Shown: positions 36,843-60,709, counted from the stretch's first letter. The stretch is 64,000 nucleotides of DNA from Anaeromyxobacter paludicola (GCF_023169965.1 NZ_AP025592.1:558001-622000), one strand, 5' to 3'. Numbers and translations: made by a program. Notes: generated from the sequence alone by a model not told the origin.

Positions 36843-37666
36843 CCGGCTTCGCGCTCGAGGTGGCGCTGCACTGGGCGGCGGTGGGGCTCTACGTCCTCGC
36901 GTCGCTGGCCTTCGCCCACGCGGTGCTCTTCGAGCATCCGGAGCGGTCGCGCTACGGCGTGTGGCTCGGCGCGGCCGGGCTCGCTCCCCACGCGGCGGCG
37001 CTCGCCTACCGCTGGATCACGAGCGGGCACGGCCCCTACATGGCCCGCTACGAGGTGCTCTCCTCCACCACCTTCGTGGCCATCGCCGTCCTGCTCGGGT
37101 TCTGCGCCCGCCGGCCCCGCTGGCGGGTGCTCGCGATGCTCGGGCTGCCGCTCGCCACCCTCGCGGTGGCCGCGGCGCTTTTCGCGAACCCGGAGGTGCG
37201 CCAGCTCCCGCCCAGCCTGCGCTCCGTCTGGCTCTTCTTCCACGTGCTCTTCGCCAAGCTGTCGGCCGGGGCCTGGCTGCTCTCGGCGGCCACCGCCGCG
37301 CTGGTGCTGGTGCGGCGGGCGCCCGGTCGCGCGCGCACCCTCTCGACGCTGCCCCACGAGGCCGAGCTCGACGCCTACACGGTCCGGTTCGCCGGCTTCG
37401 GCCTGGTCTTCTGGACGGTGACGGTGGCCGCGGGGGCCATCTGGGCCAACCAGTCGTGGGGACGGTACTGGGGCTGGGATCCGGCGGAGACCTGGTCGCT
37501 CATCGCCTGGCTCTGCTACGGCTCTTTCCTGCACGCGCGGCTGCTGCTGCGGCTCCGGGGCGCTCCCGCGGCCTGGGCCGCGCTGGCGTGCTTCCTCGTC
37601 TTCGCGCTCGCGGTCTTCTTCGTGCCGACGCGGGTGGCGTCGCTCCACTCCTCCTACTTCCAGTGA
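36839..37666 (+). CDS. ccsA: Cytochrome c biogenesis protein CcsA (ResC)
   Basis: CcsA moves heme across the membrane and with ResB attaches it to apocytochromes. The 275-residue protein has about eight TM helices and the diagnostic heme-handling WWD motif WANQSWGRYWGWDPAETWSLIAW (wholly inside residues 200-225). Flanking conserved His are in TSGHGPYMARYE, FFHVLFAKLS and LHSSYF. Its 3' end overlaps the convergent gene by 13 bases, so it is the last gene of the operon from 26129. Confidence 0.93.
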   Translation: MTGFALEVALHWAAVGLYVLASLAFAHAVLFEHPERSRYGVWLGAAGLAPHAAALAYRWITSGHGPYMARYEVLSSTTFVAIAVLLGFCARRPRWRVLAMLGLPLATLAVAAALFANPEVRQLPPSLRSVWLFFHVLFAKLSAGAWLLSAATAALVLVRRAPGRARTLSTLPHEAELDAYTVRFAGFGLVFWTVTVAAGAIWANQSWGRYWGWDPAETWSLIAWLCYGSFLHARLLLRLRGAPAAWAALACFLVFALAVFFVPTRVASLHSSYFQ

Positions 37667-40813: not shown

Positions 40814-41236
40814 ATGGCAAGACGTCTTCGCCCGATGCTGGCCGTGGCCGCGCTGGCGCTCACCGCCTGCGCCGGGCCGGCCTTCGTGCCCTACCCGGAG
40901 GCGGAGGTGGCGGGCGTGAAGAGCCCGCACGCCTTCCGCGGAAAGCCGCTCTGCCAGGGCTGCCACCAGCCGGGCCGTCGCGAGCTGCGCGCCGACCCGG
41001 TGGCGCTCTGCAAGGGCTGCCACCCGCTGCACCGCGGCAATCACCCGGTGGAGGTGGTCCAGGCCCAGCCGGTCGCGGGCCTCCCGCTCTCGCCCGGCCG
41101 CAAGGTGGCGTGCCACAGCTGCCACGACCCGCACGGCGGGGCGAAGCAGCCGCACCTGCTGCGGCTCGAGGCCAACGCGCTCTGCGCGGCATGCCACCAG
41201 AGCCTCGCGGGCAACGCGCACCACAAGGCGCGCTAG
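40814..41236 (+). CDS. Tetraheme c-type lipoprotein
   Basis: A 140-residue lipoprotein with lipobox ALTAC (Cys 19) and four CxxCH motifs: CQGCH, CKGCH, CHSCH and CAACH. His-rich stretches between them (HPLHRGNHPVEV, CHDPHG) supply distal ligands, as in doubled-CxxCH cytochromes. Probably outer-membrane anchored, relaying electrons across the periplasm or at the surface. GAGGTG precedes the ATG. It is a single gene: the convergent operon ends 4 bases downstream and the upstream neighbour is divergent. The 242-base upstream gap shows no convincing sigma-54 site. Confidence 0.92.
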   Translation: MARRLRPMLAVAALALTACAGPAFVPYPEAEVAGVKSPHAFRGKPLCQGCHQPGRRELRADPVALCKGCHPLHRGNHPVEVVQAQPVAGLPLSPGRKVACHSCHDPHGGAKQPHLLRLEANALCAACHQSLAGNAHHKAR

Positions 41237-41240
41237 CCTT

Positions 41241-43133
41241 CTACTCCCCGCATCCCAGCGCCGGCTGGCGCGCGTCGGCGCGGCGCGGGTCGGCGCCCGG
41301 GAGCGTCCGGTAGTAGGCCCACCAGCGGCAGGCCTCGGCCGCGTCCCCGATCGCCTCCTCGGTCACGGCCACGTTGTGGGCCATCACCGGCGCGTCGGGG
41401 TCGAGCGAGACGGCGGCGAGGAACTCGCGGAGCGCCTGCTCCGGCCGGCCGAGCGCGAGCAGCACCTCGCCGAGGGTGTTGTGCGCGCCGGCGTGGCCGG
41501 GGCTCGCCGCGATCGCCTGGCGCGCGTAGCGCTCCGACTGCGCCTCGAGGCCGACGGCGTGCAGGGCGATGGCGTAGTTGTTGAGGAGGTCGGGGTCGCC
41601 GGGGCTCCAGGCGAGCCCCTGCGACAGGGCCTGCGCCGCCTCCTGCATGCGGCGCTGCTGGATGAGCACCGCCCCCAGGTTCCGGTACAGCTCGGGCGGG
41701 CGGGTGGTCCCGTCGCGCGCGAGCGCCAGCGCGAACCGGAACTCGGCCTCGGCCTCCGGCAGCCGCCCGGCGAGGAAGAGCGCCTGGCCGTAGTTGGCGT
41801 GGGTGCGCGACTTGCCGGGCCCCTTCGCGACGGCGTCCCTCCAGAGCGACACCCGGTCGCGCCAGACCTGGTTGCGCGCCAGGAGGGCGCCGAACAGGGC
41901 CCCGCCGGCGACGAGGACCAGGACCGGGCCGAGGCGTCGCGCGCGAGGCCCGAGCGCCTCCGACCCGATCGCCGCGGTCGCCAGCGCCGGGCCGAGGAGG
42001 GCGAGGTAGACCCGGTGCTCCACCATGAGGTCGGCGAGCGGCACGACGCTCGAGGTCGGCGCGAGCAGGAGCAGGAACCAGCAGCTTCCGAAGGCCGCGA
42101 GGCGCGACGCCTTCGCAGGATGGCTGGGAGATCGCGCCAGCGTCGCGAGCGCCCAGGCGAGGCCGGCGAGGACGAGCGCCAGCGCGGCGAGCGTGGGGGC
42201 GTCGAGCGCCCGGCTCGGGGCGAAGGCGTGATCGATGCTCTGCCCGGCGGGCCAGAGCGCGAGCCGCAGGTAACCGGCGATGGCCCGGGGCTGGCTCAGG
42301 AGGTAGTCGCGGGCGGTCAGCCCCGGGACGTCGAAGCCGACGTCGGCCCGGCCGGAGAAGCGCCGCAGGTTGAGCCAGGCGAAGAGGGCGCCGACCGCCG
42401 CCAGCGGCGCGGCGAGGAGGCCGGCGCGCCGCAGCGCGCCGGCGCGGCCCGCGCGTCCCGGGAAGGCGAGGGCGTGGAGCAGCAGCGCCGCCGGGAGCGT
42501 CACCGCGACGAGCTTCGAGCCGAGCCCGGCGACGTAGGCGGCGAGCCCCGCCACGAGGAGCCCGGCGCGTCCGGCGGCGGTCACGGCGCGCTCGCAGCGG
42601 AGCAGGAGGAGGAGCCCGGCCAGGAAGAAGGCCGAGGCGAGCGCCTCCGAGCGCTGCACGACGTAGCTCACCGCCTCGGTCTGGAGCGGGTGCAGGGCGA
42701 AGATCCCGGCGGCGGCGAGCGCCACGCCGGGCCGGTCCCCCCATCCGGCGCGCCGCAGCGTCTCGCGCGCGAGCGCGAAGGCGAGCAGCGTCGCCGCCAG
42801 GTGCACGAGCACGTTGCCGGCGTGCCACGGCTCGGGCCGGAGCCCGAAGAGCTCGTGGGTGACCGCGAAGGTGAGGTCGGTCACCGGGCGGCCGTCGGCG
42901 AGGAAGGATGGGAGGAAGCGCTCGCGGAGGAACGCGGGGAGATCCTTCATCGCCGGGTTGGCGGTGATGGCCCGCTCGTCGTCGAACTGGAAGCCGCCGC
43001 CGAGCGCCGGGGCATAGCCGGCGGCGGTGACCGCGAGGAGGCAGAGGAGCGGCCCCGCCCGGCGGAGCAGCGAGACACGGGCCCCGGAGCGCGCGGGAGC
43101 GGGCCCGGACGGCGCCGGCAGGGGGGAGGTCAC
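41241..43133 (-). CDS. TMTC-like GT-C membrane protein with TPR repeats (tandem copy 3, operon end)
   Basis: A 630-residue protein with about 10 TM helices followed by a TPR domain (about residues 425-600: SRTHANYGQALFLAGRLPEAEAEF, PELYRNLGAVLIQQRRMQEAAQAL, GAHNTLGEVLLALGRPEQALREF). The first luminal loop holds FQFDDERAI, the acidic GT-C motif, then FALHPLQTEAVSYVVQRSEAL and LADLMVEHRVYLALLG. The C-terminus has a short Cys/Trp-rich module (ACRWWAYYRTLPGAD...GCGE) shared with its two neighbours. It starts with GTG overlapping the previous stop (GTGA). Predicted to glycosylate secreted proteins, most likely the cytochromes of the same operon (inference). Confidence 0.8.
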   Translation of the reverse strand: MTSPLPAPSGPAPARSGARVSLLRRAGPLLCLLAVTAAGYAPALGGGFQFDDERAITANPAMKDLPAFLRERFLPSFLADGRPVTDLTFAVTHELFGLRPEPWHAGNVLVHLAATLLAFALARETLRRAGWGDRPGVALAAAGIFALHPLQTEAVSYVVQRSEALASAFFLAGLLLLLRCERAVTAAGRAGLLVAGLAAYVAGLGSKLVAVTLPAALLLHALAFPGRAGRAGALRRAGLLAAPLAAVGALFAWLNLRRFSGRADVGFDVPGLTARDYLLSQPRAIAGYLRLALWPAGQSIDHAFAPSRALDAPTLAALALVLAGLAWALATLARSPSHPAKASRLAAFGSCWFLLLLAPTSSVVPLADLMVEHRVYLALLGPALATAAIGSEALGPRARRLGPVLVLVAGGALFGALLARNQVWRDRVSLWRDAVAKGPGKSRTHANYGQALFLAGRLPEAEAEFRFALALARDGTTRPPELYRNLGAVLIQQRRMQEAAQALSQGLAWSPGDPDLLNNYAIALHAVGLEAQSERYARQAIAASPGHAGAHNTLGEVLLALGRPEQALREFLAAVSLDPDAPVMAHNVAVTEEAIGDAAEACRWWAYYRTLPGADPRRADARQPALGCGE

Positions 43134-45031
43134 GGGGCGCACCCCAGCGACCGGAGGTGCTCCTGGGCCAGCCCCGGCTCGGCGCCGGCCATGCCGGCGT
43201 AGGCCCGCCAGAGCCCGCAGGACTCGGGAGCGGGCGCGCCGGCCTCCCGGGCGAGGGCCACGTCCCGGAGCCGCGACGGCTCCCGCGGCTCGAGCCGCCA
43301 GGCCTCCTCGAGCTCGCGGCTCGCCTCGTCCGTCCGGCCGAGCGCGAACAGGGCGCGGCCGAGGTCGGCGCGGGCCGAGGCGAGCCCGGGGGCCGCCAGC
43401 ACGGCGCGACGCGCCCGCTCCTCCGCCTCCGGGTAGCGCTGCAGCGCGAAGAGGGCCTCGGAGGCGCTCGCGAGCAGGAGCGGGTCCTCGGGCGCGCGCG
43501 CGAGCTCCGGCGCGAGCGCGGCGAGGGCCTCCCCGGGCCGGTCCTCGGCCAGGAGCACGGCGGCGAGGTTGGTGGCGAGGTGCGCCGGGGGCGTGGTGCC
43601 GTCGGAGGCGAGCGCGCTGGCCCGCCGGAGCTCCGCCTCGGCCTCGGCGTAGCGGCCGGCGAGGTAGAGCGTGAGCCCGTGGTTGGCGCGCGGCCTCGAC
43701 TTGGCCGGCGCCTTCGCGGCGGCGTCGGCCCAGAGCGCCTCGGGCGAGGCCCAGGCCAGGTTGCGGTGCAGGAGCGCCCCGGCGAGCGCCGCGCCGAGCG
43801 CGACCGGCACGAGGAGGGCGAGCCGGGTCGAGAACGGCGCGGGGAGCGCCGACCGGAGCCGGGCGAGCGCGAGCTCGCCGGCCACGGCGGCGGCGAGCGC
43901 CGGGCCGAGCAGCGCCAGGTAGACGCGGTGCTCGACCATCAGATCCGCGAGCGGGACCACGCTCGAGGTCGGCGAGAGCAGCAGGAAGAACCAGAGGACG
44001 CCCGCGCCGGCGAGCCGGGCCCGGACCGCGGCGGGCTCCGCGGCCGGGCGGCGGCGGGCCCAGAGGAGGGCGGTGAGCGCCGCCGCGCCGAGGGCCGCCA
44101 GGACGAGCAGGGCGCCGGCGGTCGCCGGGTCGAGACCGCGGCTCACCCGCACCGCGTGGTCCATGCTCTGCCCGGATGGCCAGGCGAAGAGCCGGAGGTA
44201 GCCGAGGACGACCCGGAGCTGCGTGAGCAGGTACTCGCGGGGCGAGAGCCCGGCGATGTCGAAGCCGACGTCGGACCGGCCGCGGTAGCGGTGGAGGCTC
44301 GACCCGGCGAAGAGGGCCGCCGCGGCGGCGAGCGGCGCCGCGCGCGCGAGCGCGCCCGCCCATCGGCCCCGGGCCCCCGCGCCCCCGGGGGGCGCCGGCG
44401 AGGCGGCCCAGAGCAGGAGCCACGCGGCCGGCAGCGTGAGCGCGACTGGCTTGCTCGCGAGCGCGGCGACGAAGGCCGCGAGCGCCGCCGCCGCGAGGAG
44501 CGCCGACCGCGCGCGGCTCGGGGCCTCCTCGGACGCGAGCAGCAGGAGGAGCGCGGCGAGGTAGAGCAGGGACGCGAGCACCTCGGCCCGCTGCGCGACG
44601 TAGCTCACGGCCTCGGTCTGGAGCGGGTGGAGCGCGAAGATCGCCGCCGCGACGGCCGGCAGGACCCCGGGATCCGGGCGGCCGGCGCGCCGGACCAGGG
44701 CCGACACCCACCGCGCCGCGAGCAGGCTCGTCGCGAGGTGGAGCAGGAGGTTCACCGCGTGGAGCCAGCGGACGTCGAGCCCGGTCAGACGGAGCTGGAG
44801 CGCGAAGGTGAGGTCCGTGAGCGGGCGCCCGTCGGGGCCGAAGGCCTGGACGAAGCGGTCCCGCAGGAACGCGCCCAGGTCCGCCAGGGCCGGGTTGCGG
44901 GCGATGGCGCGGACGTCGTCGAACTGGAACGCGCCGCCGAGGGCCGGGAGGTAGCACGCGGCCGCGAGGGCGAGCGCGGCGAGCAGCCAGGGGCGGGCCG
45001 CCCGGGCGGGATCGTTCAGCGGGCCGGGCAT
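43130..45031 (-). CDS. TMTC-like GT-C membrane protein with TPR repeats (tandem copy 2)
   Basis: A 633-residue paralog of the genes on both sides. Luminal acidic motif FQFDDVRAI near residue 40, then FALHPLQTEAVSYVAQRAEVL, SDVGFDIAGLSPREYLLTQ, and PLADLMVEHRVYLALLG in the later helices. TPR units occupy about residues 425-600 (PRANHGLTLYLAGRYAEAEAELRR, ASARADLGRALFALGRTDEASRELEE). The C-terminus ends with a Cys module (ESCGLWRAY...SLGCAP) equivalent to the one in copy 3. Its start overlaps the end of copy 1 by 16 bases. Strong Ala/Leu bias reflects the GC content. Confidence 0.8.
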   Translation of the reverse strand: MPGPLNDPARAARPWLLAALALAAACYLPALGGAFQFDDVRAIARNPALADLGAFLRDRFVQAFGPDGRPLTDLTFALQLRLTGLDVRWLHAVNLLLHLATSLLAARWVSALVRRAGRPDPGVLPAVAAAIFALHPLQTEAVSYVAQRAEVLASLLYLAALLLLLASEEAPSRARSALLAAAALAAFVAALASKPVALTLPAAWLLLWAASPAPPGGAGARGRWAGALARAAPLAAAAALFAGSSLHRYRGRSDVGFDIAGLSPREYLLTQLRVVLGYLRLFAWPSGQSMDHAVRVSRGLDPATAGALLVLAALGAAALTALLWARRRPAAEPAAVRARLAGAGVLWFFLLLSPTSSVVPLADLMVEHRVYLALLGPALAAAVAGELALARLRSALPAPFSTRLALLVPVALGAALAGALLHRNLAWASPEALWADAAAKAPAKSRPRANHGLTLYLAGRYAEAEAELRRASALASDGTTPPAHLATNLAAVLLAEDRPGEALAALAPELARAPEDPLLLASASEALFALQRYPEAEERARRAVLAAPGLASARADLGRALFALGRTDEASRELEEAWRLEPREPSRLRDVALAREAGAPAPESCGLWRAYAGMAGAEPGLAQEHLRSLGCAP

Positions 45032-46914
45032 GACAGCTCCGCGAGGTGCCGGCGCGTCGCCGCCGCCTCGGCGGGCGCGAGGGAGAGGAAGCGCCGCCAG
45101 GCGTCGCAGGCGCCGGGCCGGCCGAGCCGCTCCCGGGCCAGCGCGAGGTTGTAGACGCGCGCCGGGACGTCGGGGTCCACGGACACCGCCGCCTCGAACT
45201 CCCGCAGCCCCTCCTCGAGCCGGCCCTCGGCGAAGCGCACCTCGCCGAGCGTGTTGTGGGCCCCGCCGTGGTCCGGCTCCAGCGCGAGCGCCCGGCTCGC
45301 GTGCGTCGCGGCCGACGGGAGCCGCCCGAGCTCGAGCTCGAGGATGCCCAGGTTGTTCTCGAGGTCGGCGTCGAGCGGCGAGAGCGCCGCCGCCTCCTGG
45401 AGCACGGTCGAGGCCTCCTGCAGCCGGCCGAGCTGGATGAGGGTGGCCGAGAGGTTGCGGAGCACCTCCGGCCGCGAGGCGTTCGGCTCGGGCGGGAGGG
45501 CGAGGGTGCGCGCGTACTCGGCCGCGGCCTCCTCGAGCCGGCCCGCCTGCTGGAGGGCGAAGCCGAGGTTCATGTGCGGGCGGGCGCGGGACGGCGCGGC
45601 GGCGACCGCCTCGCGCCAGAGCGCCTCGTCGGAGCGCCAGACCCGGTTCCGGGCGGAGGTGGCGCCCGCGGCGGCGGCGAGCAGCGCGAGCCCGGCGCAG
45701 GCCACGAGCGGGCGCGGGACGCCGCCGGGGCGCGAGAGGAGGGTGAGCCCGGCCGCGCCGGCCGCGAGCACCAGGCCGAGGCTCGCGAGGTAGACCCGGT
45801 GCTCCATCATCACGTCCGCGAGGGGCAGCACGGTGGAGGTGGGCGCCAGCAGGAGGAAGAACCAGAGCGTACCGAAGGCGGCCAGCCGCGCCGCGGCCGC
45901 CGCCGGCCCGGGGCGGCCGCGGAGCCGGAGCGCGGCCGCCCCGGCGAGGACGAGGAGCGCGAGGAGCAGGGCGCCGCACCCGGCGGTGGCCGGGTCGAGC
46001 CCGCGCGCCGGCGCGAGGTCGTGCTCCAGGGTCTGGCCCACCGGCAGGAGCAGGAGCCGGAGGTAGCCCACCACGGCGCGGGCCTGCGAGAGCAGGTACG
46101 TGCCCGGCGAGAGGCCGGGGATGGCGAAGCCGGCGTCGCTCCGGCCGGACGCGGGGCCGACGGCGCGCAGCTGCGCGAACGCGAAGAGCGCCCCGAGGGC
46201 GAGGAGCGGGGCGGCGAGGGCGAGCCGGAGGCGCCAGGGGCGCGGCCCGGCGTCCGGCCCGCCGAGACAGGCGCGGAAGAGGAGGAAGGCCAGCGGCGCC
46301 GTGATCGCCACCGGCTTGGCGGCCATCGCGAGCGCGAAGCAGGCGAGGGCGAGCGCCGCCGCGGCGAGCCGGCCGGCCGGGCGCCGGGCCTCCTCGGCCC
46401 GGAGCAGGAGCAGGACGACGGCCAGGGCGAGGGCGGAGGCGAGCACCTCCGACCGCTGCGCCAGGTAGCTCACCGACTCCGCCTGCACGGGGTGCAGCCC
46501 GAACAGCGCCGCGCAGAAGGCGGCCAGCCAGGGCGCGTCCTCGCCCGAGGCGGCGCGCAGGGCCCGGCGCGCCAGGGCCCAGGCGAGCGCGACGGCCGCG
46601 AGGTGGAGGACGAGGCTGGTGAGGTGGAAGCGCGGCCCCGACAGCCCGGCGAGCCGGTAGTCGAGGGCGAAGGTCAGATCGGTGAGGGGGCGCCCATCGG
46701 CGAGGAGCCGCTGCCAGAAGGGGCCGGCCAGGAAGGCGGCGAGGTCCTTGATGGCGCGGTTGTCGAGGATCGCGCTCCGGTCGTCGTAGTGGAACCCGCC
46801 CGCGAGGGCGCCGCGCCACGCCAGCGCGCAGGAGGCGAGCAGGCACGCCAGCGGGGCGGCGCGCTTCCAGGTGGGGCTCGGGTCGGCGGCGGGCGGGGTG
46901 GAGCGGGGGCTCAC
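45016..46914 (-). CDS. TMTC-like GT-C membrane protein with TPR repeats (tandem copy 1)
   Basis: A 632-residue member of the same family, starting with GTG within the stop of the tetraheme gene (GTGA). Features: luminal FHYDDRSAI, then FGLHPVQAESVSYLAQRSEVL, SDAGFAIPGLSPGTYLLSQ, PLADVMMEHRVYLASLG, and TPRs from about residue 420 (PHMNLGFALQQAGRLEEAAAEYAR, GGAHNTLGEVRFAEGRLEEGLREFEA). It ends with CDAWRRFLSL...LSCPAR, the shared Cys module. In animals TMTC proteins are O-mannosyltransferases for cadherins; bacterial relatives are poorly studied. Direct coupling to a Ser/Thr-rich cytochrome points to that protein as substrate (inference). Confidence 0.8.
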   Translation of the reverse strand: MSPRSTPPAADPSPTWKRAAPLACLLASCALAWRGALAGGFHYDDRSAILDNRAIKDLAAFLAGPFWQRLLADGRPLTDLTFALDYRLAGLSGPRFHLTSLVLHLAAVALAWALARRALRAASGEDAPWLAAFCAALFGLHPVQAESVSYLAQRSEVLASALALAVVLLLLRAEEARRPAGRLAAAALALACFALAMAAKPVAITAPLAFLLFRACLGGPDAGPRPWRLRLALAAPLLALGALFAFAQLRAVGPASGRSDAGFAIPGLSPGTYLLSQARAVVGYLRLLLLPVGQTLEHDLAPARGLDPATAGCGALLLALLVLAGAAALRLRGRPGPAAAAARLAAFGTLWFFLLLAPTSTVLPLADVMMEHRVYLASLGLVLAAGAAGLTLLSRPGGVPRPLVACAGLALLAAAAGATSARNRVWRSDEALWREAVAAAPSRARPHMNLGFALQQAGRLEEAAAEYARTLALPPEPNASRPEVLRNLSATLIQLGRLQEASTVLQEAAALSPLDADLENNLGILELELGRLPSAATHASRALALEPDHGGAHNTLGEVRFAEGRLEEGLREFEAAVSVDPDVPARVYNLALARERLGRPGACDAWRRFLSLAPAEAAATRRHLAELSCPAR

Positions 46915-47732
46915 TTGTTGTGACAGCTGCGGCAGAGCCCGTCCCCGGTGCCTTCCAGGACGCGGAGGAAGGTGCCGTTGGCGTTGTTGTGCGGATCGTG
47001 GCAGGTGGTGCACTCCACGCCGAGGCCGCCCGTGGAGCTGTCGCGGATGAGGTTGATGAGCTTCCCCGACTGGACGCCGTTGTTGGGCGCGGCGGTGCAG
47101 TAGGTGCTCGGCGAGAGGCAGCCGGTGGTGAGCGGGGCGTAGTAGTTGCCGGTGGTCCCGTCGGCCGGTCCGGCCTTGCTGGTGATCCCGTTGTAGCTGC
47201 TGGTCTGGGCGGCGTAGGGGATGCCGACCGGGTGCTGCGCGCTCATGTCGCCGCTGTTCCCGACCACGTAGGTCGAGTCGGTCGCCAGCGAGAGCTTGTT
47301 GGCGGTCACGCCGGTCATCGGGATGCTGGTGCTCACCCCGCCGGAGTTCATCACCGCGCCGAGCTCGACCGTGCCGTCGTGGCAGGCGAGGCAGCGCTTC
47401 GTCTCGGCGCGCATCGACGAGGGGAGGGGCGTGCCGGCGCTGGTGGTGAGCTGGCCGCCCGAGCCGTTCGAGTTGTAGCTCGAGACGGTGGTGTCCTTGT
47501 GGTTCCACAGCCCGCGGGTCGTGCTGGCGTTGTGCGGCGTGTGGCAGAACTTGCAGACGTCGTTGTCCGCCGCGTTCAGGGCCTTGATGCCGCTCGAGTT
47601 GGCGCTCGAGTAGCTCAGGTCGTGCGAGGTGTTGCGGATGCCGGCGCGCGCGGGGGCCGGCGCCGCGAGCGCCGCCCAGACGGCGAGGGCGGGGAGGAGG
47701 GCGAGGAGGCGAGGTGCGTGGTCGCGCGGCAT
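46911..47732 (-). CDS. Secreted tetraheme c-type cytochrome, candidate filament subunit (copy 1)
   Basis: A 273-residue exported cytochrome: signal peptide about 1-30 (PAPARA), then CKFCH, CLACH, CTTCH and CRSCH. The mature part (about 243 residues, four hemes, a long Ser/Thr/Gly-rich segment between the second and third hemes) is close in size and heme number to OmcE, the tetraheme protein that forms extracellular filaments in Geobacter. It shares with the gene at 55150 the order HDLS, CxFCHxPHN, CLxCHDG, HPVG, CHxPHNxANGTFLR and a terminal CHxK. Two extra Cys (GCLSPSTYC) may form a disulfide. It is flanked by the 12-heme gene (9-base gap) and a GT-C gene (overlap). Confidence 0.88.
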   Translation of the reverse strand: MPRDHAPRLLALLPALAVWAALAAPAPARAGIRNTSHDLSYSSANSSGIKALNAADNDVCKFCHTPHNASTTRGLWNHKDTTVSSYNSNGSGGQLTTSAGTPLPSSMRAETKRCLACHDGTVELGAVMNSGGVSTSIPMTGVTANKLSLATDSTYVVGNSGDMSAQHPVGIPYAAQTSSYNGITSKAGPADGTTGNYYAPLTTGCLSPSTYCTAAPNNGVQSGKLINLIRDSSTGGLGVECTTCHDPHNNANGTFLRVLEGTGDGLCRSCHNK

Positions 47733-47741
47733 GGCCGTCCC

Positions 47742-49484
47742 CTAGTAGGCGCGCTCGTCGTGCTGCGCGCCGTGGCAGCTCACCGAGCAGGTGCCGCTGC
47801 GCGCGCCGCGGCTGGTGTAGCGGAGGGCTCCGCGCGGGCCGGGGCGCGCCACCGAGACGTCGTAGTCCATCAGGTGCGCGCCGCCCTGGCTGCTCGCGGC
47901 CGCCGCGGTGACGCCGTGCGCGTTGTGGCAGACGGAGCAGGGCGTGCTCTGGTCCACCACGTGGCGGGCGTGGAGCTTGAACCCGGACTGCGACGAGAGC
48001 AGCACCGTCCGGTCGTGGCACTTGTAGCAGAGCGCGTACGCGTCCGGGCTCTCCGGGGTGCGATCGGCGGTGGCGTAGTTCCGCTCGAGCAGGTGCGGGT
48101 AGATCGAGCCGTGCGGGCCCTTCGGCACCGTGCCCGTGCCGGCGCCGTTCGAGGCGTGGCAGTCGCTGCAGTAGATCTGGCTCGCGGTGGTGAGCCCCTT
48201 CACCAGGCTCGGCACGTCGGCGCTGTGCCCCGGGCCGATCACCGGGTGGGAGGAGGGCGAGGAGGGGTCGAAGACCCGGCGCAGGTTCACCTCGGTCACG
48301 AGGCGGCGCACGGTGCCGCCGGAGCTGCCGCCCCGGCCCTGCGGCTGGTTCATGCTGTCGGCGTGGCACTTGAAGCAGACTTCGTACTCGTAGTTGACGG
48401 GCTCGACCCGCTGGCCGTTCCGGTCGATGCCCCAGACGCCGGCGAGCGCCCCGGAGGCGCGCGGCGCGGTCGCGTCCACCGCGCTGACCGAGTGCGGGTC
48501 GTGGCAGTCCACGCAGGCGACGTGGCGCGGGATCCCGGCGTTCGGCTCGGGCAGCCGGTTGGAGGCGCTCTGCGGCCCTTCGCTCGCCTCGTGGCCGGAC
48601 GGGCCGGAGCTGGGCGCGGCGTGGGACCAGGGCTTCGCCATCTCGCGGTTCACGTCGAGCGGCGCGGTCCGGCCGTCGTGGCAGTCGAGGCAGACCTTGT
48701 CGTCGCCGTCGGCCCGGCCGCCCTTGACCAGCCGGGCGCCGCGCGCGTTGTGCTGGGCGTGGCAGGCGGCGCAGCCCTTCTCGGCCATGTCCGACACCAC
48801 CGCGGGGTTGACCGAGCGGATGCCGAAGTTCCGGGTCTGGAGCTGGTGGGAGCTGCTGGGCCAGTTCGGGAGCGTGTGGCAGGAGGAGCAGATGGCCGAT
48901 CGCTTGTTCGACTTGACCAGGAACTTCGGCTGTTCCGGATCGCCGTCCTCGCTGTGCGGGTCGTGGCAGGAGGTGCACTGCACGTTGCCGCCCCGGTCGA
49001 GCTTGACCGCATCGCCGCGCACCGGATCGCGGGTCTTCCCGGCCGGCATGGGCTTGAAGGAGACGGGGTGCGAGCCGGAGAGGTCGCTGCCGAGGTAGGC
49101 GGGGCGGTTGGTCGGGATCCGCCCGCCCGGCCCGGTCCCGAGCATGGGGATGGAGCCGCCGGAGACGGTCTGGCCGATGGCGATCGTGCCGTCGTGGCAG
49201 GAGAGGCAGGTCCGCGAGGCGCCGCTCGCGGACTGGGCGCCCTGGGAGGCCATGGTGCTGCTGCGGTAGTGCTGGTGGAGCGCCTGCGAGCGCGGCCGGT
49301 TCTCGGTCCCGGACGCGCCCTTGTGCGGCGTGTGGCAGAAGATGCACGCCCGCTTCTCGGTGGTGGAGCGGATCGAGCCCGGACCGGTGGCGGAGAGGTT
49401 GTGGCGGCTCTCGAGGAGCCCGGACTTCGCGGCTGCCAGCCCGGGGGCCAGCGCGAGCAGCGCGAGCAGGAGGATCCGTTTCAT
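47742..49484 (-). CDS. Twelve-heme c-type cytochrome
   Basis: A 580-residue exported cytochrome with signal peptide (1-19, LAAA), 11 CxxCH motifs (CIFCH at 47-51 through CSVCH) and one CX3CH (CSVSCH) near the C-terminus. Its first four hemes repeat the tetraheme plan of the neighbours: SRHNLS, CIFCHTPHK, CLSCHDG, HPVSF, CTSCHDPH, CSSCH. It therefore looks like a tetraheme unit extended by eight hemes. In porin-cytochrome conduits a cytochrome of similar size lies inside or under the barrel; the barrel encoded at 50485 is a candidate partner (inference). Its start overlaps the NHL lipoprotein stop (ATGA). Confidence 0.9.
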   Translation of the reverse strand: MKRILLLALLALAPGLAAAKSGLLESRHNLSATGPGSIRSTTEKRACIFCHTPHKGASGTENRPRSQALHQHYRSSTMASQGAQSASGASRTCLSCHDGTIAIGQTVSGGSIPMLGTGPGGRIPTNRPAYLGSDLSGSHPVSFKPMPAGKTRDPVRGDAVKLDRGGNVQCTSCHDPHSEDGDPEQPKFLVKSNKRSAICSSCHTLPNWPSSSHQLQTRNFGIRSVNPAVVSDMAEKGCAACHAQHNARGARLVKGGRADGDDKVCLDCHDGRTAPLDVNREMAKPWSHAAPSSGPSGHEASEGPQSASNRLPEPNAGIPRHVACVDCHDPHSVSAVDATAPRASGALAGVWGIDRNGQRVEPVNYEYEVCFKCHADSMNQPQGRGGSSGGTVRRLVTEVNLRRVFDPSSPSSHPVIGPGHSADVPSLVKGLTTASQIYCSDCHASNGAGTGTVPKGPHGSIYPHLLERNYATADRTPESPDAYALCYKCHDRTVLLSSQSGFKLHARHVVDQSTPCSVCHNAHGVTAAAASSQGGAHLMDYDVSVARPGPRGALRYTSRGARSGTCSVSCHGAQHDERAY

Positions 49485-50485
49485 GAGTGGCCCTCCACGA
49501 TCTGGAACTGCTGCAGGCGGCGGTTGAGGGCGTCGGCGACGAACAGCCGGTCGCCCGAGACGGCGAGCCCGGCGGGGAACCGCAGCTCGCCCGGCCCGTC
49601 GCCCTCCTCGCCGGCGGCGTACTGGAAGCGCCCCTCGCGGTCGAAGACCAGCACCACGTCCCACTGGGCGTCGCTGACGTAGAGGTTGCCACGCCCGTCG
49701 GCGGCCACCCCCTTCGGCCGACCGAACTGCCCCTCTTCGTCGCCCGCCTCCCCGAAGCTGCCGAGCCAGCTGCCTTCCAGCGTGACCCGGACGATCCGGA
49801 AGTTCAGCGCGTCCACCACCGCGAGGGTCCCGCCGGGCTGGGCGGCGATGCCGGTCGGGAAGTTGAACTCACCCTCGCCCTCGCCCCGGCGGCCGAACCG
49901 GAACAGCTCACGCCCCTCCAGCGAGAGGACGACCACCGCATGGGCCGGCGGATCGGCGACGTAGAGCCGGCTCGCCGCGACGGCGAGACCGGTGGGGCGC
50001 TGCAGCGCGACCGGCAGCTTGCGGCACTCGCCCTCGGGCGTGATCCGGAACACCGCCGGCCCGTCGGCGACGTAGCGGTTCCCCGACGCGTCCTGGGCCA
50101 CCGCGATGGGGGCCTCCCAGGGGTGGCTCGGACAGGGGATCTCGCTGGAGGTGCCGCTCTGCCAGTTCACGCTGAGGACGCTCGGGCCATCGGGGTCGGC
50201 TACCAACAGGGTATCACCTTCGGCCGCCAGGCCGAACGGTCGCCGGAGCACGGGCGCCGCCCCGCCCGGCTCGGTTCCGGTGACGGCGCCGAGCACGCGC
50301 TCCCACCAGGAGGGTTCGCGCAAGGGGCGGGTGGCGACCCAGCCTTCCCAGCGCAGCCGCGCGGCCGCGGGGGGCGCGGGCCAGGCCGGCCGCGGCGCCT
50401 CCGGGATGGGCCGTGCGGCCGCGTGGGCGCAGCCGGACAGCAGGGCGAGCGCGAGCGCCGCCGCGCCGGGGCCAGACCGCCTCAT
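49481..50485 (-). CDS. NHL-repeat lipoprotein of a cytochrome cluster (copy 1)
   Basis: A 334-residue lipoprotein with lipobox LLSGC (Cys 19). From about residue 85 to the end it is a six-bladed NHL propeller: RPFGLAAEGDTLLVADPDG, RPTGLAVAASRLYVADPP, FPTGIAAQPGGTLAVVDALNFR, RPKGVAADGRGNLYVSDAQWDVV, FPAGLAVSGDRLFVADALNRR. NHL proteins are recurrent neighbours of outer-surface cytochromes in Geobacter-type bacteria; their role is unproven. The relative at 56142 sits in the other cytochrome cluster. Its ATG overlaps the barrel gene stop by one base and its own stop overlaps the 12-heme ATG. Confidence 0.9.
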   Translation of the reverse strand: MRRSGPGAAALALALLSGCAHAAARPIPEAPRPAWPAPPAAARLRWEGWVATRPLREPSWWERVLGAVTGTEPGGAAPVLRRPFGLAAEGDTLLVADPDGPSVLSVNWQSGTSSEIPCPSHPWEAPIAVAQDASGNRYVADGPAVFRITPEGECRKLPVALQRPTGLAVAASRLYVADPPAHAVVVLSLEGRELFRFGRRGEGEGEFNFPTGIAAQPGGTLAVVDALNFRIVRVTLEGSWLGSFGEAGDEEGQFGRPKGVAADGRGNLYVSDAQWDVVLVFDREGRFQYAAGEEGDGPGELRFPAGLAVSGDRLFVADALNRRLQQFQIVEGHS

Positions 50486-52212
50486 CAGAAGGAGGCCCCG
50501 AACGACCGCGAGATCCGGGCCATGAAGAGGTTGCCGCGCTGGGTGATGCCGGAGCTGCCGCCGGTCGAGTACTGGTCCTCGAGCGAGAAGGTGACCGCTC
50601 CGATGTTGTAGCCGAGGGTGCCGGTCAGGCCGGTCTCGGAGTTGGTCGCGCGCTCCGGCGCGCTGGTCGTGACGTACCGGGCGGAGGCGTTGAGCGAGAG
50701 GCTCTTCGCAGGGGTGACGCCGGTGGAGACGGAGGCGTACGCCGAGTGGGAGTTGTAGGCGACCGGGATGAAGAGCCCGTCCGCGATCCCGGCCGGCTGG
50801 CCGGAGAGGCCGTCGGTCAGGCCGGCGCTGAGCGAGACCCGCCAGATGCGCCAGGAGGTCGAGCTCAGCAACGAGACGTTCCGGCTGAAGCTCGTGCCGA
50901 GCAGGGGATCCTGCTGGCGCGAGGCGCTGGCGGTCAGGTTGTTCTGGAGGCGCACGCCGGCGCCGACGTCGACGTCGGCGTTGGCGGTGACCGTGTGCGA
51001 GAAGGTCCAGCCGCTCACGGCCGAGAGGTTGGTGCTGTAGGAGCCGCTGTACCCGAGCATGCCGACCAGCCGCTCCCAGCGCCGCGAGACGCTGGTCGTC
51101 GCGCTGGCTCCGTAGCCGCCGTTGGTGCCGGTCTGGTCGTGCAGGAGCCCCACGTTGAGCTGGCCGCCGGCGTTGTACTGCCAGGGGCCCCGGATCGAGA
51201 ACCAGTTCACCCCGCCGCCGATCTGCTCGCCGCTGGCCCGGCGGTTGGTGTCCCCGAGCCGCTCCTGGTTGTTGTTGAACCCGAGGTTGGCGTTGAACGA
51301 GAGGGAGCGCGTGTAGGCGTAGCCGACGTTGGTCGAGACGCCGTGGTTCAGGTACTCGCGATCGAGGGCCGACGGCGCGCTCACCACCCCGTGGTGGTAG
51401 TTGTAGGCGAGCTGCGTCGTGACGACCGGGTTGAGCTTCCAGCTCAGCGAGGTGCCGAAGGCGTTGTCGTCGATCCGGGGGTTGTTGCTCGCCTGCAGGG
51501 TGGGGTCGCGCAGGAGGTAGTTGTCGTTGACCCGGAGCTGGATGTCCTTGGAGATCTCGCTGGTCTCCTGCAGGTTGAGGTAGTGGAGACGGTAGTTGTT
51601 CTCCGAGTAGTTGCCGCTGTTCCAGCTGGTGTTGTAGGCGGCCGCGTAGGTGTGGGGCCCGAGCGTCTGGTTGAGGCTCGCCGCCATGCTCGTGGAGTCG
51701 GTCTTGTTGTTGAGCCCCGCGAAGCCGGTGTTCTCGGTGGTGGTGTGCATCACCGTCGCCCCGACCGTGGGCAGGTTCGCAATCTGGAGGCCCAGGTTGG
51801 CGGTCTCGTTGGAGCTGAAGGTCGTGCCGGTGGTGGCGGACGCGCCATCGCTCGTGAAGTCGTAGCGGTTGCGCGAGGCGCCGATGCCCAGGGACAGCGG
51901 GGAGCGGCGGAACAGGCTGGCGGACCCGGCGTAGGTGAAGTTCTGGCCCGTGGAGCTGGCCTCGCTGTAGAGCGTGCGGGTGTGCCGGTAGTCGAGGTTG
52001 CCGCTCAGGTCGAGGAGGTCCTGGCGGATGGGGCTGCCGTGGACCGCGATCGAGCCGCCGAGATCCCACACCGGCGCGGCCGAGTGGCTGTCGGCGCTCC
52101 AGGTGTCGGAACGCCAGTACTCCGCGTTGATGGCGCCGGAGACGTCGAAGGCGAGGCACGGGGTGGCGACGGCGGCCGCCAGCAGCGCGGGGAGGACGAG
52201 GGAGCGGCTCAT
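50485..52212 (-). CDS. Outer-membrane beta-barrel protein, candidate porin of an electron conduit
   Basis: A 575-residue exported protein: signal peptide 1-21 (PCLA), then alternating amphipathic strands for the whole mature chain, rich in Asn, Ser, Thr and Tyr (LGYSGSYSTNLSAV, LNVGLLHDQTGTNGG, AYNTSWNSGNYSENNYRLHYLNL). It ends in SRSFGASF, a C-terminal Phe typical of outer-membrane barrels. I estimate 24-28 strands, similar to MtrB/PioB and the Geobacter porins, but there is no clear family motif (MtrB often has an N-terminal CxxC; none here). It is coupled to NHL and 12-heme genes downstream, which supports a porin-cytochrome complex (inference). Confidence 0.82.
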   Translation of the reverse strand: MSRSLVLPALLAAAVATPCLAFDVSGAINAEYWRSDTWSADSHSAAPVWDLGGSIAVHGSPIRQDLLDLSGNLDYRHTRTLYSEASSTGQNFTYAGSASLFRRSPLSLGIGASRNRYDFTSDGASATTGTTFSSNETANLGLQIANLPTVGATVMHTTTENTGFAGLNNKTDSTSMAASLNQTLGPHTYAAAYNTSWNSGNYSENNYRLHYLNLQETSEISKDIQLRVNDNYLLRDPTLQASNNPRIDDNAFGTSLSWKLNPVVTTQLAYNYHHGVVSAPSALDREYLNHGVSTNVGYAYTRSLSFNANLGFNNNQERLGDTNRRASGEQIGGGVNWFSIRGPWQYNAGGQLNVGLLHDQTGTNGGYGASATTSVSRRWERLVGMLGYSGSYSTNLSAVSGWTFSHTVTANADVDVGAGVRLQNNLTASASRQQDPLLGTSFSRNVSLLSSTSWRIWRVSLSAGLTDGLSGQPAGIADGLFIPVAYNSHSAYASVSTGVTPAKSLSLNASARYVTTSAPERATNSETGLTGTLGYNIGAVTFSLEDQYSTGGSSGITQRGNLFMARISRSFGASF

Positions 52213-54608
52213 CGGCTGGCCCCGGTCACGAGGGTGGCCGGGAGCTCCGTCCGGTAGGGCGCCGCGCTCGGCGGGAGGATCCAGCCGGTCGCCGCCTCGC
52301 GGAGGCAGGTGGCGAGCTTCGCGCCGCCGATGGTCTCGTCCGCGGAGGCCTGGGAGAGGATGCCGTCGGCCGACACCACCAGCCGGATCGCGCCGCGGGT
52401 GGCGCGGGCGTCGGCGGCGGCCGCGCAGCGGTCGAGGTCGGCCTGGTGCGAGGCGAGCGCCTCGCGCAGCCGGCGCCGCCCCGCGGCGTCCGCGGTGAGG
52501 AGGTCGGCCGCGGCCTTCGCCTGGCGGGCCGAGACGGCGGGACCGCCGCGGAGCGCCGAGACCACGACGTCCACGTGGGCCGTGCTCGCCCGGACCGAGG
52601 TCTGGACCACCACCGCGCGGGCCTGCACGCCGTTCGCCACCAGCGCCGCCCGGACCTCGTCGGCGCGCCGGGCGGCCTCGGGCAGCGTGGCCTCGTCGCG
52701 GGCCCGGGCGCGGACCAGCACGGTCACGCCGTCGCGGGCCAGCCGGGCGATGCCCAGGAGGGCCTCGCGATCGAGGTCCTGCATCGCGGCGGAGGCGTCC
52801 GCGAAGTAGATCGCCGTGCCGGCGAGCACGGTCGCCTCGCCGAGATCGACGGCCGGGACGGGCGCCGCGGCGGCCTGGCTCTGCGTGAGCTCGAGGCGCG
52901 TGGGCTCGCCGAGCTGCAGCTTCGGGCGGCCGGCGGCCAGCGGGGCGGTCGCGCTCGGGGCCGGGACGCCCGCCGCGGGGGCGCCCGCCGGCGGCTTGGG
53001 GGCGCCCGGGGCGACCGTCGCGGCGGCGAGGCTGCTGGCGGCGGCGAGCCGCTGCTCGGCCAGCGCCAGGCGATCGGCGTGCACGCCGAGCCGCTTCTCG
53101 AAGCTGTCGAGCCGCTCGGACCCGACCCGCAGGGAGCGCTCGACCGCGTCCTGCCGCTCGTAGCGGGCCGCCAGCAGCTCCTCCACGTTCGAGAGGGCCG
53201 CGTTGCGCTGGAAGACGAGCTGCCGCCGGAGCTCCAGCAGGCGCGCGGAGCTGGTCTCTTGCGCGCGAGCGCTCGAGAGCCGCTGCAGCTCGGCGCGCAG
53301 GGTGGCGTCCCGGGCGCGGGCCGTGACCTCGCGCTGGGAGGCCGCCTCGGAGATGGCGCGCAGGGCCTGCTGCTGCGCCTGCATGTCCTGCTCGGCGTTG
53401 CGGAACTGGCCCTCGCTGACGACGAGCTGCCGCTCGCGGTCACTGGGCGTCCCGGGGCGCACGCTCCGCTCGCGGGCGTCGAGGGCCTTCTGCTTCTCGG
53501 CGAGCTTCTGCTCGCGCCGGGCGAGCTCCTGGACCCGCGTCGCCTGCTCCTTGTCGCGCGCGTTCAGCCCGGCCTCGGCGGTGGCGAGGCGGCGCTCGCG
53601 CGCGTCGAGCTGCTCGGAGCGGCGATCGAGGTCGCGCCCCGCCTGCTCATCCGGCGAGAGCGTGACCTGCCGGACGGAGCTGCGGGAGGGCGCGGCCTGC
53701 TGCGCCGCGACCGGCGCGGTGGTGGAGGCGACCACGAGGCCGTACTGGAGGTGGCGCGGATCCTGGTCTGCGGCGCCCGGCCCGCGCAGCTTCATGCGGA
53801 AGTGCGGGCGATCGTCGAGGAACACGGGACCCTGGGGCTTGCCCTTGGCCGCGCTCGCGGCCGCCGGCTTGGCGGGCCCCTGCCGCACGCTCCGGCGCGA
53901 GCGGGTCGGCGAGGCGAAGCCGAAGCCGAGGCTGAAGCGGACGCCGCTCTCCTGCGGCAGCCAGGACAGGCCGAGCGAGACGCCCGTGATCGGGGTGAGG
54001 TTGTAACGCACCGACGCGCCGAACAGCGAGCCGCCCGGATTGGTGAGCCCCTCGGCGACGAGCTCCGTCTTGCCGTTCAGGGAGAGCGACGCGGCGAGGC
54101 CGGCGGAGATCCCGCTGGCGCCGGGGCGGCCGAGGCCGGCCACGCCGGCGAACCCGGCGAAGCGGACCCGGTTCGTCTCCTGGGTCGAGGCGATGAGGTG
54201 GGTGGCGCCGCTCGCGTGCCAGTTGAAGCGCTCGGCCACCGCGTCGATGGCGAGGGCCGGGAATCCCTCGGTCGCGTCGGTCAGGTGGAGCTTGAGGGCG
54301 GTGTTGAAGAGGAGCGGGGAGGGGTGCGGGTCGCCGGGGCTGCCCCACTCGCGGAGCGAGAAGCCGAGGTCGAAGCCGTGCCCGGTCCCGCCGACGATGG
54401 AGAAGGGCATCGGGCCGATGTCGGGCGGGCCCGAGGGATGCCGATCCAGCCGTAGCTCACCCCCGACCAGTCCCTGTCCGGCCGGCAGCGTCTCGGCGTC
54501 CGGGACGTCGAGCAGGCCGGTCGTGCCGCCCCGCGCAGGGAACGGGCTGCCCCAGGCGGCCGAGGCGGACGCGAGCAGGACGGTAGCGGCGACGAGCCGG
54601 AGGGACAC
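52209..54608 (-). CDS. YjbH-like barrel plus coiled-coil envelope protein with AgmX/PglI-like C-terminus
   Basis: A 799-residue exported protein (GTG start, signal peptide ending AAWG). Residues about 25-240 resemble YjbH/exopolysaccharide outer-membrane proteins (GGTTGLLDVPDAETLPAGQGLVGGELR, GFDLGFSLREWG, ALAIDAVAERFNWHASGATHLIAS). About 320-530 is coiled coil. About 600-700 is a beta-alpha domain of OmpA-like look (ATVLAGTAIYFADASAAMQDLDREALLGIARL). The last 85 residues (GAIRLVVSADGILSQASADETIGGAKLATCLREAATGWILPPS) resemble the AgmX/PglI C-terminal domain of myxobacteria. It may organise secretion or surface assembly for the operon. It follows the HTH gene by 4 bases. Confidence 0.75.
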   Translation of the reverse strand: MSLRLVAATVLLASASAAWGSPFPARGGTTGLLDVPDAETLPAGQGLVGGELRLDRHPSGPPDIGPMPFSIVGGTGHGFDLGFSLREWGSPGDPHPSPLLFNTALKLHLTDATEGFPALAIDAVAERFNWHASGATHLIASTQETNRVRFAGFAGVAGLGRPGASGISAGLAASLSLNGKTELVAEGLTNPGGSLFGASVRYNLTPITGVSLGLSWLPQESGVRFSLGFGFASPTRSRRSVRQGPAKPAAASAAKGKPQGPVFLDDRPHFRMKLRGPGAADQDPRHLQYGLVVASTTAPVAAQQAAPSRSSVRQVTLSPDEQAGRDLDRRSEQLDARERRLATAEAGLNARDKEQATRVQELARREQKLAEKQKALDARERSVRPGTPSDRERQLVVSEGQFRNAEQDMQAQQQALRAISEAASQREVTARARDATLRAELQRLSSARAQETSSARLLELRRQLVFQRNAALSNVEELLAARYERQDAVERSLRVGSERLDSFEKRLGVHADRLALAEQRLAAASSLAAATVAPGAPKPPAGAPAAGVPAPSATAPLAAGRPKLQLGEPTRLELTQSQAAAAPVPAVDLGEATVLAGTAIYFADASAAMQDLDREALLGIARLARDGVTVLVRARARDEATLPEAARRADEVRAALVANGVQARAVVVQTSVRASTAHVDVVVSALRGGPAVSARQAKAAADLLTADAAGRRRLREALASHQADLDRCAAAADARATRGAIRLVVSADGILSQASADETIGGAKLATCLREAATGWILPPSAAPYRTELPATLVTGASR

Positions 54609-54612
54609 GCGG

Positions 54613-55059
54613 TCAGTCTCGCGGGGAGGGAGAGCGGGGGGGGGCGGTGCGCGGCGGGCGGGTGAGACCGAACTGGCTCAAGGTCCGCTCGACGCTGCGG
54701 ACCGAGACGGCGTGACCTTGCCGCGCGAGGTCGTCGGCGATGGCGGCGGCGCTGCGCTCGGGCTCCTTCAGGCGCGCCGTGACGATGAACTGGACTACGG
54801 CCATGGGGCGGCGCCAGGGGCCGCGCGGGCCGGGAGGCCGGGCCAGGAGCCCGCTCAGTCCCTGCTCACGGAAGCGCCGGAGCTTCTCGTAGTAGGTGCT
54901 GCGCGAGCGGCCGAACTCGGCCAGGACCACCGGGAGCGGGCGGCCGCTGGTCTCGCCCTCGATGAGCATCGCCAGGTCGGCGGCCGCCTCGTCCTCCGGC
55001 CGGACCTGGAGGGCGCCGCCGGGGCCCTTGATCTCGCGGATGGAAGTTCTTCTGAGCAT
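54613..55059 (-). CDS. Winged-helix/helix-turn-helix protein, transposase-like DNA-binding domain
   Basis: A 148-residue basic protein. Residues about 35-75 are a helix-turn-helix (RPLPVVLAEFGRSRSTYYEKLRRFREQGLSGLL, HTH_29 style), and about 85-135 a second winged-helix-like segment (ERSAAAIADDLARQGHAVSVRSVERTLSQFGL). Such tandem domains occur at the N-terminus of IS630-type transposases and in orphan regulators derived from them. No catalytic DDE domain follows and no inverted repeats flank it, so it is more likely a regulator. As first gene of the operon it may control the cytochrome genes behind it (inference). Confidence 0.7.
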   Translation of the reverse strand: MLRRTSIREIKGPGGALQVRPEDEAAADLAMLIEGETSGRPLPVVLAEFGRSRSTYYEKLRRFREQGLSGLLARPPGPRGPWRRPMAVVQFIVTARLKEPERSAAAIADDLARQGHAVSVRSVERTLSQFGLTRPPRTAPPRSPSPRD

Positions 55060-55103
55060 GGTGCGAGCGCCGGTTCCGAGAGATTCTGGCGGAGTCCTGA
55101 GGC

Positions 55104-55141
55104 GGAAAAAGCGCGGAGCGCATCGCGCCCCGCGCTTTTCC
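55104..55141 (-). terminator. Intrinsic terminator after the tetraheme cytochrome gene
   Basis: On the minus strand GGAAAAGCGCGG pairs with CCGCGCTTTTTCC across a 13-base loop, with the T-run built into the descending arm. It begins 9 bases after the stop at 55150. It separates this gene from the operon starting at 55059, whose own promoter must lie in the remaining short gap or depend on read-through. Confidence 0.75.
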
Positions 55142-55149
55142 CTAGGAGC

Positions 55150-55911
55150 TTACTTCTGGTGGCAGGTGAGGCAGAGGGCGCTGCCGGCGTTCGAGGCGCG
55201 GAGGAACGTGCCGTTCGCCGTGTTGTGCGGCTCGTGGCAGCTGGCGCACTCGATCTGGAGGGCGTTGCCGGAGTTCAGGTAGAGCGGGAGGGCCTTGCCG
55301 GCCGTGCCGTTGTTCACGCAGCCGCCGCCGCTGTTGGTGCTGCAGCCGGTGTTGGTGGCGCCGTAGTACTGGTTGGCGCCCACCGGGGCGGTGGTGCCGG
55401 TCTGGCCGGGGAAGGGCACGCCGACCGGGTGGTTCTTGCGGAGGTCGCCGCCGACGCCGATGTCGTACGGGCTCGTGCCGACGATCTTGCCGCCGCTGGT
55501 GCGGCTCGCCTGGTCGGTGATGGCGATGGTGGTCGCCGAGCCGCCCATGTTCATGACGTCGCCGAGGGCGATCGAGCCGTCATGGCAGCTGAGGCAGCGG
55601 AGGGAGCCGTTCGCGCTGAACTGAGCGGCGGTGGTCGGCAGGGTGGTGCCCTGCGAGGTCTTGCCGTTGTTGATGGAGTCGGTCCAGGTGTAGGTCGAGG
55701 TCGGGTTCTTGCGGTTCCAGAGCGCCAGGGTGGTCTGCGCGTTGTGCGGAACGTGGCAGAAGATGCAGACCTGGTCGACCGAGGTCGCCTTCACGGCGCC
55801 GCTGGTGGAGTTCGAGGACGAGAGGTCGTGCCGGCTGTTCTTGATCTGAGCCTGCCCGGCGAGCGGCATCACCAGCGCGACCACCGCGAGAAACTTCAGA
55901 AGATTACGCAT
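55150..55911 (-). CDS. Secreted tetraheme c-type cytochrome, candidate filament subunit (copy 2)
   Basis: A 253-residue exported cytochrome. The signal peptide (about 1-22, GQAQ) precedes CIFCH, CLSCH, CASCH and CLTCH. It is a clear paralog of the protein at 46911: HDLS near the mature N-terminus, CIFCHVPHNAQTTLALWN, CLSCHDGSIALGDVMN, HPVGVPFPGQT, CHEPHNTANGTFLR and a terminal CHQK. The loop between hemes 2 and 3 is Gly/Ser/Thr-rich with two extra Cys. Four hemes in about 230 mature residues is the size of the filament-forming OmcE. It has its own sigma-54-like promoter, a good ribosome site (GGAGGGAG) and a terminator, so it can be made in large amounts independently. Confidence 0.9.
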   Translation of the reverse strand: MRNLLKFLAVVALVMPLAGQAQIKNSRHDLSSSNSTSGAVKATSVDQVCIFCHVPHNAQTTLALWNRKNPTSTYTWTDSINNGKTSQGTTLPTTAAQFSANGSLRCLSCHDGSIALGDVMNMGGSATTIAITDQASRTSGGKIVGTSPYDIGVGGDLRKNHPVGVPFPGQTGTTAPVGANQYYGATNTGCSTNSGGGCVNNGTAGKALPLYLNSGNALQIECASCHEPHNTANGTFLRASNAGSALCLTCHQK

Positions 55912-60648: not shown

Positions 60649-60693
60649 CAGCGGATCATCCGGTCGAGAGGTGGTTTTCCAAGTGGCTCCGCC

Positions 60694-60709
60694 TGCAATT
60701 GGGGTGCCG
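60694..60709 (-). promoter_or_regulatory. Sigma-54-type promoter of the 21-heme cytochrome operon
   Basis: Minus strand CGGCACCCCAATTGCA fits TGGCACG-N4-TTGCA at five of seven -24 positions with a perfect -12 block and correct spacing. The predicted start near 60683 leaves about 35 bases of leader before the ATG at 60648. Confidence 0.6.

Follow-up and report, generated by a model that had tools for sequence, protein, structure and literature searches.

Why should one bacterial operon combine multiheme cytochromes with three consecutive membrane glycosyltransferases? The question is raised by a locus within the window, the 64,000-nucleotide stretch of the Anaeromyxobacter paludicola genome analysed here; the genome is a single high-GC contig of 4.59 Mb, and its nearest named relatives, as judged by the locus, are Myxococcales MAGs. 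A sequence-only reading of the window had proposed that nine genes encode a surface cytochrome apparatus served by dedicated TMTC-type GT-C glycosyltransferases. The nine reading frames are indeed present on the minus strand between positions 41241 and 55059, transcription running from 55059 to 41241, and the codon-position GC pattern supports their coding status. Their order was given correctly, as was the statement that neighbouring genes overlap or lie at most 9 bases apart, the junctions ranging from +9 bp to -16 bp. In the direction of transcription, the gene of a small HTH protein is followed by those of a 799-aa protein (4 bp), an outer-membrane barrel (-4 bp), an NHL lipoprotein (-1 bp), a 12-heme cytochrome (-4 bp), a tetraheme protein (+9 bp) and the glycosyltransferases GT1 (-4 bp), GT2 (-16 bp) and GT3 (-13 bp, or -4 bp if the GT3 start is taken at 43133).

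The nine-gene interval stands, but the coherent locus is larger and continues upstream to position 60729. The gene of a second tetraheme protein, OmcE-a (55150-55911), lies 90 bp upstream of the nine-gene operon, outside the interval first delimited. Further upstream, also on the minus strand, are the genes of NHL/beta-propeller protein 2 (56142-57263; Pfam NHL, E 3.5e-19), a PPIC-type peptidyl-prolyl isomerase (PPIase, 57272-58474; Pfam Rotamase, E 2.4e-10) and, in the upstream operon, a multiheme cytochrome with 21 CxxCH motifs (58489-60729, exact start uncertain; Pfam Paired_CXXCH_1 in ten stretches). The relatives have the same upstream neighbours: orthologues of the 21-CxxCH cytochrome occupy the same place in four loci (L043, L124, L126 and L131), and the PPIC-type PPIase recurs beside OmcE-type loci (24 matches). 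The intergenic region separating OmcE-a from the nine genes (55060-55149) holds a terminator- or attenuator-like minus-strand hairpin with a U-tract; its 18-bp stem has a predicted stability of -43.3 kcal/mol (z -2.69), equalled by one of 200 shuffles. Given so strong a hairpin in front of the HTH gene, the nine genes are probably transcribed separately from OmcE-a or else by read-through. The hairpin may serve to keep the filament subunit well in excess of the conduit proteins.

Several other genes of the window lie outside the locus. Convergent with the operon end is the gene of a small cytochrome with four CxxCH motifs (40835-41236, plus strand). A fourth GT-C, which has no TPR domain (37654-39144), is encoded 86 bp downstream of the gene of a B12-binding radical SAM protein (39231-40571). 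Radical SAM matches recur beside other OmcE-type loci, and in L126 a small four-heme protein also adjoins a radical SAM gene. A separate cytochrome cluster (29254-34952, plus strand) encodes a five-CxxCH protein and then a 1531-aa protein with 14 CxxCH motifs.

The two tetraheme proteins give the locus its character. The one encoded within the operon, OmcE-b (46911-47732, minus strand), has the four CxxCH motifs attributed to it from the outset, and both tetrahemes combine four CxxCH motifs with full-length homology, revealed by a PDB sequence search, to the nanowire subunit OmcE (7tfs_A). OmcE-a is the closer homologue (E 2.4e-39 over the whole length, compared with 7.8e-19 for OmcE-b), and the two are 41% identical to each other. 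The second-best PDB match of both is 9yuq_N, a "putative multiheme cytochrome c" present in 16 chains (E 2.6e-16 for OmcE-b). OmcE-a contains exactly eight histidines, the number required by four bis-His hemes; each of them, including the N-terminal His of the HDL motif, is conserved in 85-90 of the 90 aligned relatives. In OmcE filaments a heme of one subunit is ligated by a His of the neighbouring subunit (PMC9473688), and surface glycans, proposed to form a coat that insulates the wire, have been reported for both OmcE and OmcS (PMC9473688, PMC11077965). OmcE-a and OmcE-b may likewise polymerise into a filament, as their homology suggests, homology by itself being no proof of polymerisation. 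As a candidate acceptor of sugar the tetraheme is favoured by this kinship with proteins reported to be glycosylated, but not by the richness in Ser and Thr for which it was first singled out. That argument was rejected, since Ser/Thr content does not separate tetrahemes linked to a GT-C gene (22.2%, n=4) from unlinked ones (19.7%), and the barrel, with 22.6%, equals the tetrahemes.

The 12-heme cytochrome (47742-49484, minus strand) appears to be built on the same module. Its residues 25-203 can be aligned with OmcE-a over almost the full length of the latter (BLASTP E 4e-19), the HDL/HNL histidine included, so that the protein looks like an OmcE module extended by eight more hemes. The original count of 12 hemes is upheld: 11 motifs are CxxCH, and the twelfth, CxxxCH, was counted as a conserved motif because 57 of the 65 relatives having 11 CxxCH motifs also have a CxxxCH near the C-terminus. 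The OmcE-like head could serve as the base of a filament or as its adaptor. In the literature covered we found no description of an OmcE module in a conduit cytochrome, though earlier mention in the primary nanowire papers is possible.

A large outer-membrane barrel is encoded beside these multiheme cytochromes (50485-52212, minus strand). Its AF2 model (mean pLDDT 85.8) has 28 strands, and its best PDB match is MtrB (6r2q_B; Foldseek E 8.6e-10, VIA-align Z 17.6 over 450 residues); TonB-dependent receptors equal MtrB in Z but over shorter alignments of 258-380 residues. The adjoining NHL beta-propeller protein 1 (49481-50485, minus strand; Pfam NHL, E 5.8e-17) has a lipobox. Together with the 12-heme protein, the putative porin and the lipoprotein would make up a porin-cytochrome conduit broadly of the Pcc/OetABI type. 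NHL, OmcE-type and 12-heme genes are found in recurring combinations in loci of Myxococcota, Nitrospirota, Planctomycetota, Bacteroidota and Proteobacteria.

The first two genes of the operon encode less familiar products. The small HTH protein (54613-55059, minus strand; HTH_32, E 4.1e-9) matches the IS481 model with its N-terminal part only (E 1.5e-13); it resembles the DNA-binding half of an IS481/IS630 transposase, has no DDE domain, and is kept in nine related loci. With no catalytic domain, it looks like a regulator domesticated from a transposase. The 799-aa protein (52209-54608, minus strand) is of the secreted or outer-membrane type, with a coiled coil and a weak OmpA-like domain, and its family is kept in 12 related loci. 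Its earlier description as YjbH-like found no support, the sub-threshold OmpA match (E 0.026) being the sole Pfam hit and NCBIfam returning nothing useful.

The three glycosyltransferases, GT1 (45016-46914), GT2 (43130-45031) and GT3 (41241-43142, the start being 43142 or 43133), are all encoded on the minus strand, and each joins a TMTC-like GT-C part to TPR repeats. They share 47-53% identity and form a single clade (support 100/98), which identifies them, as judged from their sequences, as a local tandem expansion. The GT-C fold claimed for them is borne out by the AF2 model of GT3 (pLDDT 90.3, pTM 0.87), whose membrane part, followed by TPR repeats, matches STT3 (Z 19.4), ArnT (Z 18.5) and Pmt4 (Z 18.1), matches seen through VIA realignment, as the Foldseek list itself was dominated by TPR proteins. 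All three have the TMTC motifs used for comparison (PMC7801869), namely Asp-Asp and Arg-Pro in the first loop, the donor Lys and the Arg of Glu-His-Arg-x-Tyr. The acidic pair of the catalytic loop, which in GT3 is residues 51/52 and on whose conservation the initial proposal depended, is seen in all linked GT-Cs that the alignment covers at this point; the donor-binding Lys is replaced by Asn in four OmcE-adjacent Geobacteraceae copies (L057, L191, L193 and L194). None of the three gave a Pfam TMTC match or an NCBIfam name, GtrII being their sole weak Pfam match, and the GT-C domain alone matched nothing among PDB profiles. As sequence does not reveal which sugar is transferred, we do not claim the label "mannosyltransferase" for GT1-3. 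The genome also encodes a homologue of polyprenyl-phosphate sugar synthases that shares 54% identity with one encoded beside a Geobacteraceae GT-C and could supply the donor of GT1-3.

Does this company of genes recur elsewhere? A scan with the tetraheme alignment, taking one genome per species, yielded 80 OmcE-type loci, which were then searched with a GT-C profile; six of them contain TMTC-like genes. GT-C genes were found in related cytochrome loci of three phyla, as the sequence-only reading required. A Nitrospirota locus (L101) encodes on one strand OmcE, a GT-C, a PPIase, a barrel-like protein, an NHL protein, a 12-heme protein and another GT-C. In the family of the window organism, the GT-C gene follows directly after the tetraheme gene in L124 and L123 and after the 12-heme gene in L125; the conduit is encoded in L126 and L131 too, where no GT-C accompanies it. 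The window gene order is repeated in a Myxococcales MAG (L043), with one GT-C gene on the opposite strand between those of NHL2 and OmcE. When TMTC-like genes were counted genome-wide, at least one lay within 10 kb of an OmcE-type locus in 4 of the 15 Myxococcota genomes, where 0.28 would be expected, and in 5 of the 19 named genomes, where 0.47 would be.

The linkage was also counted in Geobacteraceae. A strong OmcE orthologue occurs in 14 of 48 genomes, a set that does not include G. sulfurreducens and in which the best identity to OmcE is 64%. A TMTC-like GT-C is encoded no more than 10 kb from nine of these 14 loci, where chance would give 0.48, which yields P of about 4e-11, a value that, like the other linkage P values, assumes uniform gene placement and independent genomes and ignores shared ancestry. 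The single TMTC-like gene of one genome (G082) lies in a same-strand run encoding OmcE, a barrel-like protein, a GT2 and the GT-C, in which each of the last two genes overlaps its predecessor; the order is the same or nearly the same in G086, G085 and Geomobilimonas luticola. In six of these genomes, all six OmcE loci had a GT-C within 10 kb, as opposed to one of the 18 other doubled-CxxCH cytochrome loci among the matches listed (Fisher P 5e-5), and on this count an association of GT-Cs with any cytochrome was rejected. As a separate observation, Geobacter sp. OR-1 (G066, L060) has 24 TMTC-like matches, many of them clustered away from OmcE (contigs C51 and C60). In the window organism's own genome, at about 2.69 Mb, a further TMTC-like GT-C is encoded directly downstream of a three-heme protein (L182:9313-11127, 11225-11977), so that GT-C/cytochrome pairs may extend beyond OmcE there.

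A single vertical origin of the linkage was rejected by a tree of 53 GT-C domains, in which the OmcE-linked members are polyphyletic, with 10 label changes, at least 8 of them forced by well-supported branches. The association was thus made several times, or was repeatedly made and lost, which suggests repeated recruitment of GT-Cs to OmcE loci, and such repetition is not expected under passive hitch-hiking. Most OmcE-type loci, including most of those in Phycisphaerae, Rhodocyclales and Bacteroidota and several in the window organism's own family, are without a GT-C gene in the 10 kb to either side; the GT-C is therefore an accessory rather than a core part.

We consider it probable that the locus is an OmcE-type nanowire locus with its own outer-membrane conduit and dedicated O-glycosyltransferases. 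OmcE-a and OmcE-b would be exported by the Sec route and receive their hemes in the periplasm. GT1-3, residing in the inner membrane, would use their TPR domains to bind the periplasmic subunits and would transfer sugar from a polyprenyl-phosphate donor to Ser/Thr residues on the surface of the OmcE-type subunits before polymerisation. The subunits would then leave the cell and polymerise as a glycosylated filament, and electrons would reach it through the 12-heme protein sitting in the MtrB-like barrel; the OmcE-like head of the 12-heme protein may act as the dock for the filament base. The surface cytochrome apparatus with dedicated TMTC-type GT-Cs is retained here by inference, shorn of its Ser/Thr argument and of the YjbH-like label. 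Only tentatively, and with somewhat less than even confidence, do we propose the more general statement that TMTC-type O-glycosyltransferases, recruited many times independently, sugar-coat OmcE-type nanowires, and that the OmcE-like head of the 12-heme protein is the first "subunit", joining the filament electrically to the cell.

The GT-Cs might instead act on a surface polysaccharide or lipid, as ArnT and GtrII do, and owe their location to shared biofilm or metal-reducing conditions. ArnT ranks high among the structural matches (Z 18.5), GtrII is the single weak Pfam match of the window GT-Cs, and the neighbours of the Geobacteraceae GT-Cs include other sugar genes. We nevertheless regard this as unlikely: in the window and in the Nitrospirota locus the GT-C genes are flanked by cytochrome genes or immediately follow them, and other sugar genes are absent; the linkage is specific for OmcE among cytochrome loci, and a protein substrate fits the TPR domains. 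Less plausible still is that the sugar goes to another operon product, be it the 12-heme protein, the barrel or the 799-aa protein, and not to the tetraheme. Such an acceptor would agree with G001 and the far end of L101, where a GT-C gene comes directly after the 12-heme gene, and with the Ser/Thr content of the barrel, which matches that of the tetrahemes; yet OmcE is a known site of surface glycosylation (PMC9473688), and a tetraheme gene directly followed by a GT-C gene is found in the window, L123, L124 and L101.

It also seems very improbable that the GT-C domains are non-catalytic and serve as membrane/TPR scaffolds for assembly or export of the nanowire. TPR domains are typical scaffolds and the donor Lys is missing from the four linked Geobacteraceae copies, but the Asp-Asp pair, His-Pro and Arg motifs are retained in the window copies and nearly all others. 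A chance neighbourhood of functionally unconnected genes can hardly be credited: TMTC-like genes are common, numbering 1 to 24 in most genomes searched, but the enrichment, the specificity and the repeated recruitment already disfavour it.

OmcE nanowires, Pcc/OetABI conduits, propeller/PPIase cytochrome operons and TMTC-like prokaryotic proteins are each already known singly. Full-length prokaryotic TMTC homologues have been noted, with no function assigned and as not yet well characterised (PMC7801869), and nanowire assembly is listed as unresolved (PMC12307469). We found no paper naming the enzymes that glycosylate OmcS or OmcE nanowires and no description in the literature covered of TMTC-like GT-Cs within nanowire operons, for which prior mention in the primary papers (Nat Microbiol 2022, Cell 2023) is possible. 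The locus and its relatives offer concrete, testable candidate genes for the nanowire-coating enzymes, and if the proposal is true, prokaryotic TMTC homologues gain a class of substrates. The OmcE module in the 12-heme conduit protein, in turn, hints at a way of connecting a filament electrically to the outer membrane.

Animal TMTC1-4 (CAZy GT105) and the GT-C/PMT O-mannosyltransferases have the GT-C fold and C-terminal TPR repeats in common with the window enzymes, as well as the loop-1 Asp-Asp, the donor Lys and the Arg before the late helix (motifs from PMC7801869); the window enzymes are bacterial, are encoded within an electron-transfer operon, and are TMTC-like in fold and motifs. Likened by gene content, the four-gene operon of SEEP-SRB1, Geobacter and Anaeromyxobacter (PMC5539420) has a similar core of beta-propeller, PPIase and two large cytochromes, with 26 and 16 hemes compared with 21 and 12 here. 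A large barrel encoded with multiheme cytochromes is common to MtrCAB, Geobacter Pcc, OetABI (PMC4245776, PMC10553843) and the present locus, where the barrel has 28 predicted strands, finds its best PDB match in MtrB and is joined to an OmcE-type module. The OmcE filament of Geobacter sulfurreducens (PDB 7tfs) is built of a tetraheme whose homology to those described here spans the full length and includes the eight His, and an NHL gene lies upstream in related OmcE loci, as it does here. For that filament a surface glycan has been reported; filament and glycan are predictions for the present locus, which differs in having two paralogues, a 12-heme protein that incorporates an OmcE module, and three tandem TMTC-like GT-Cs within the operon.
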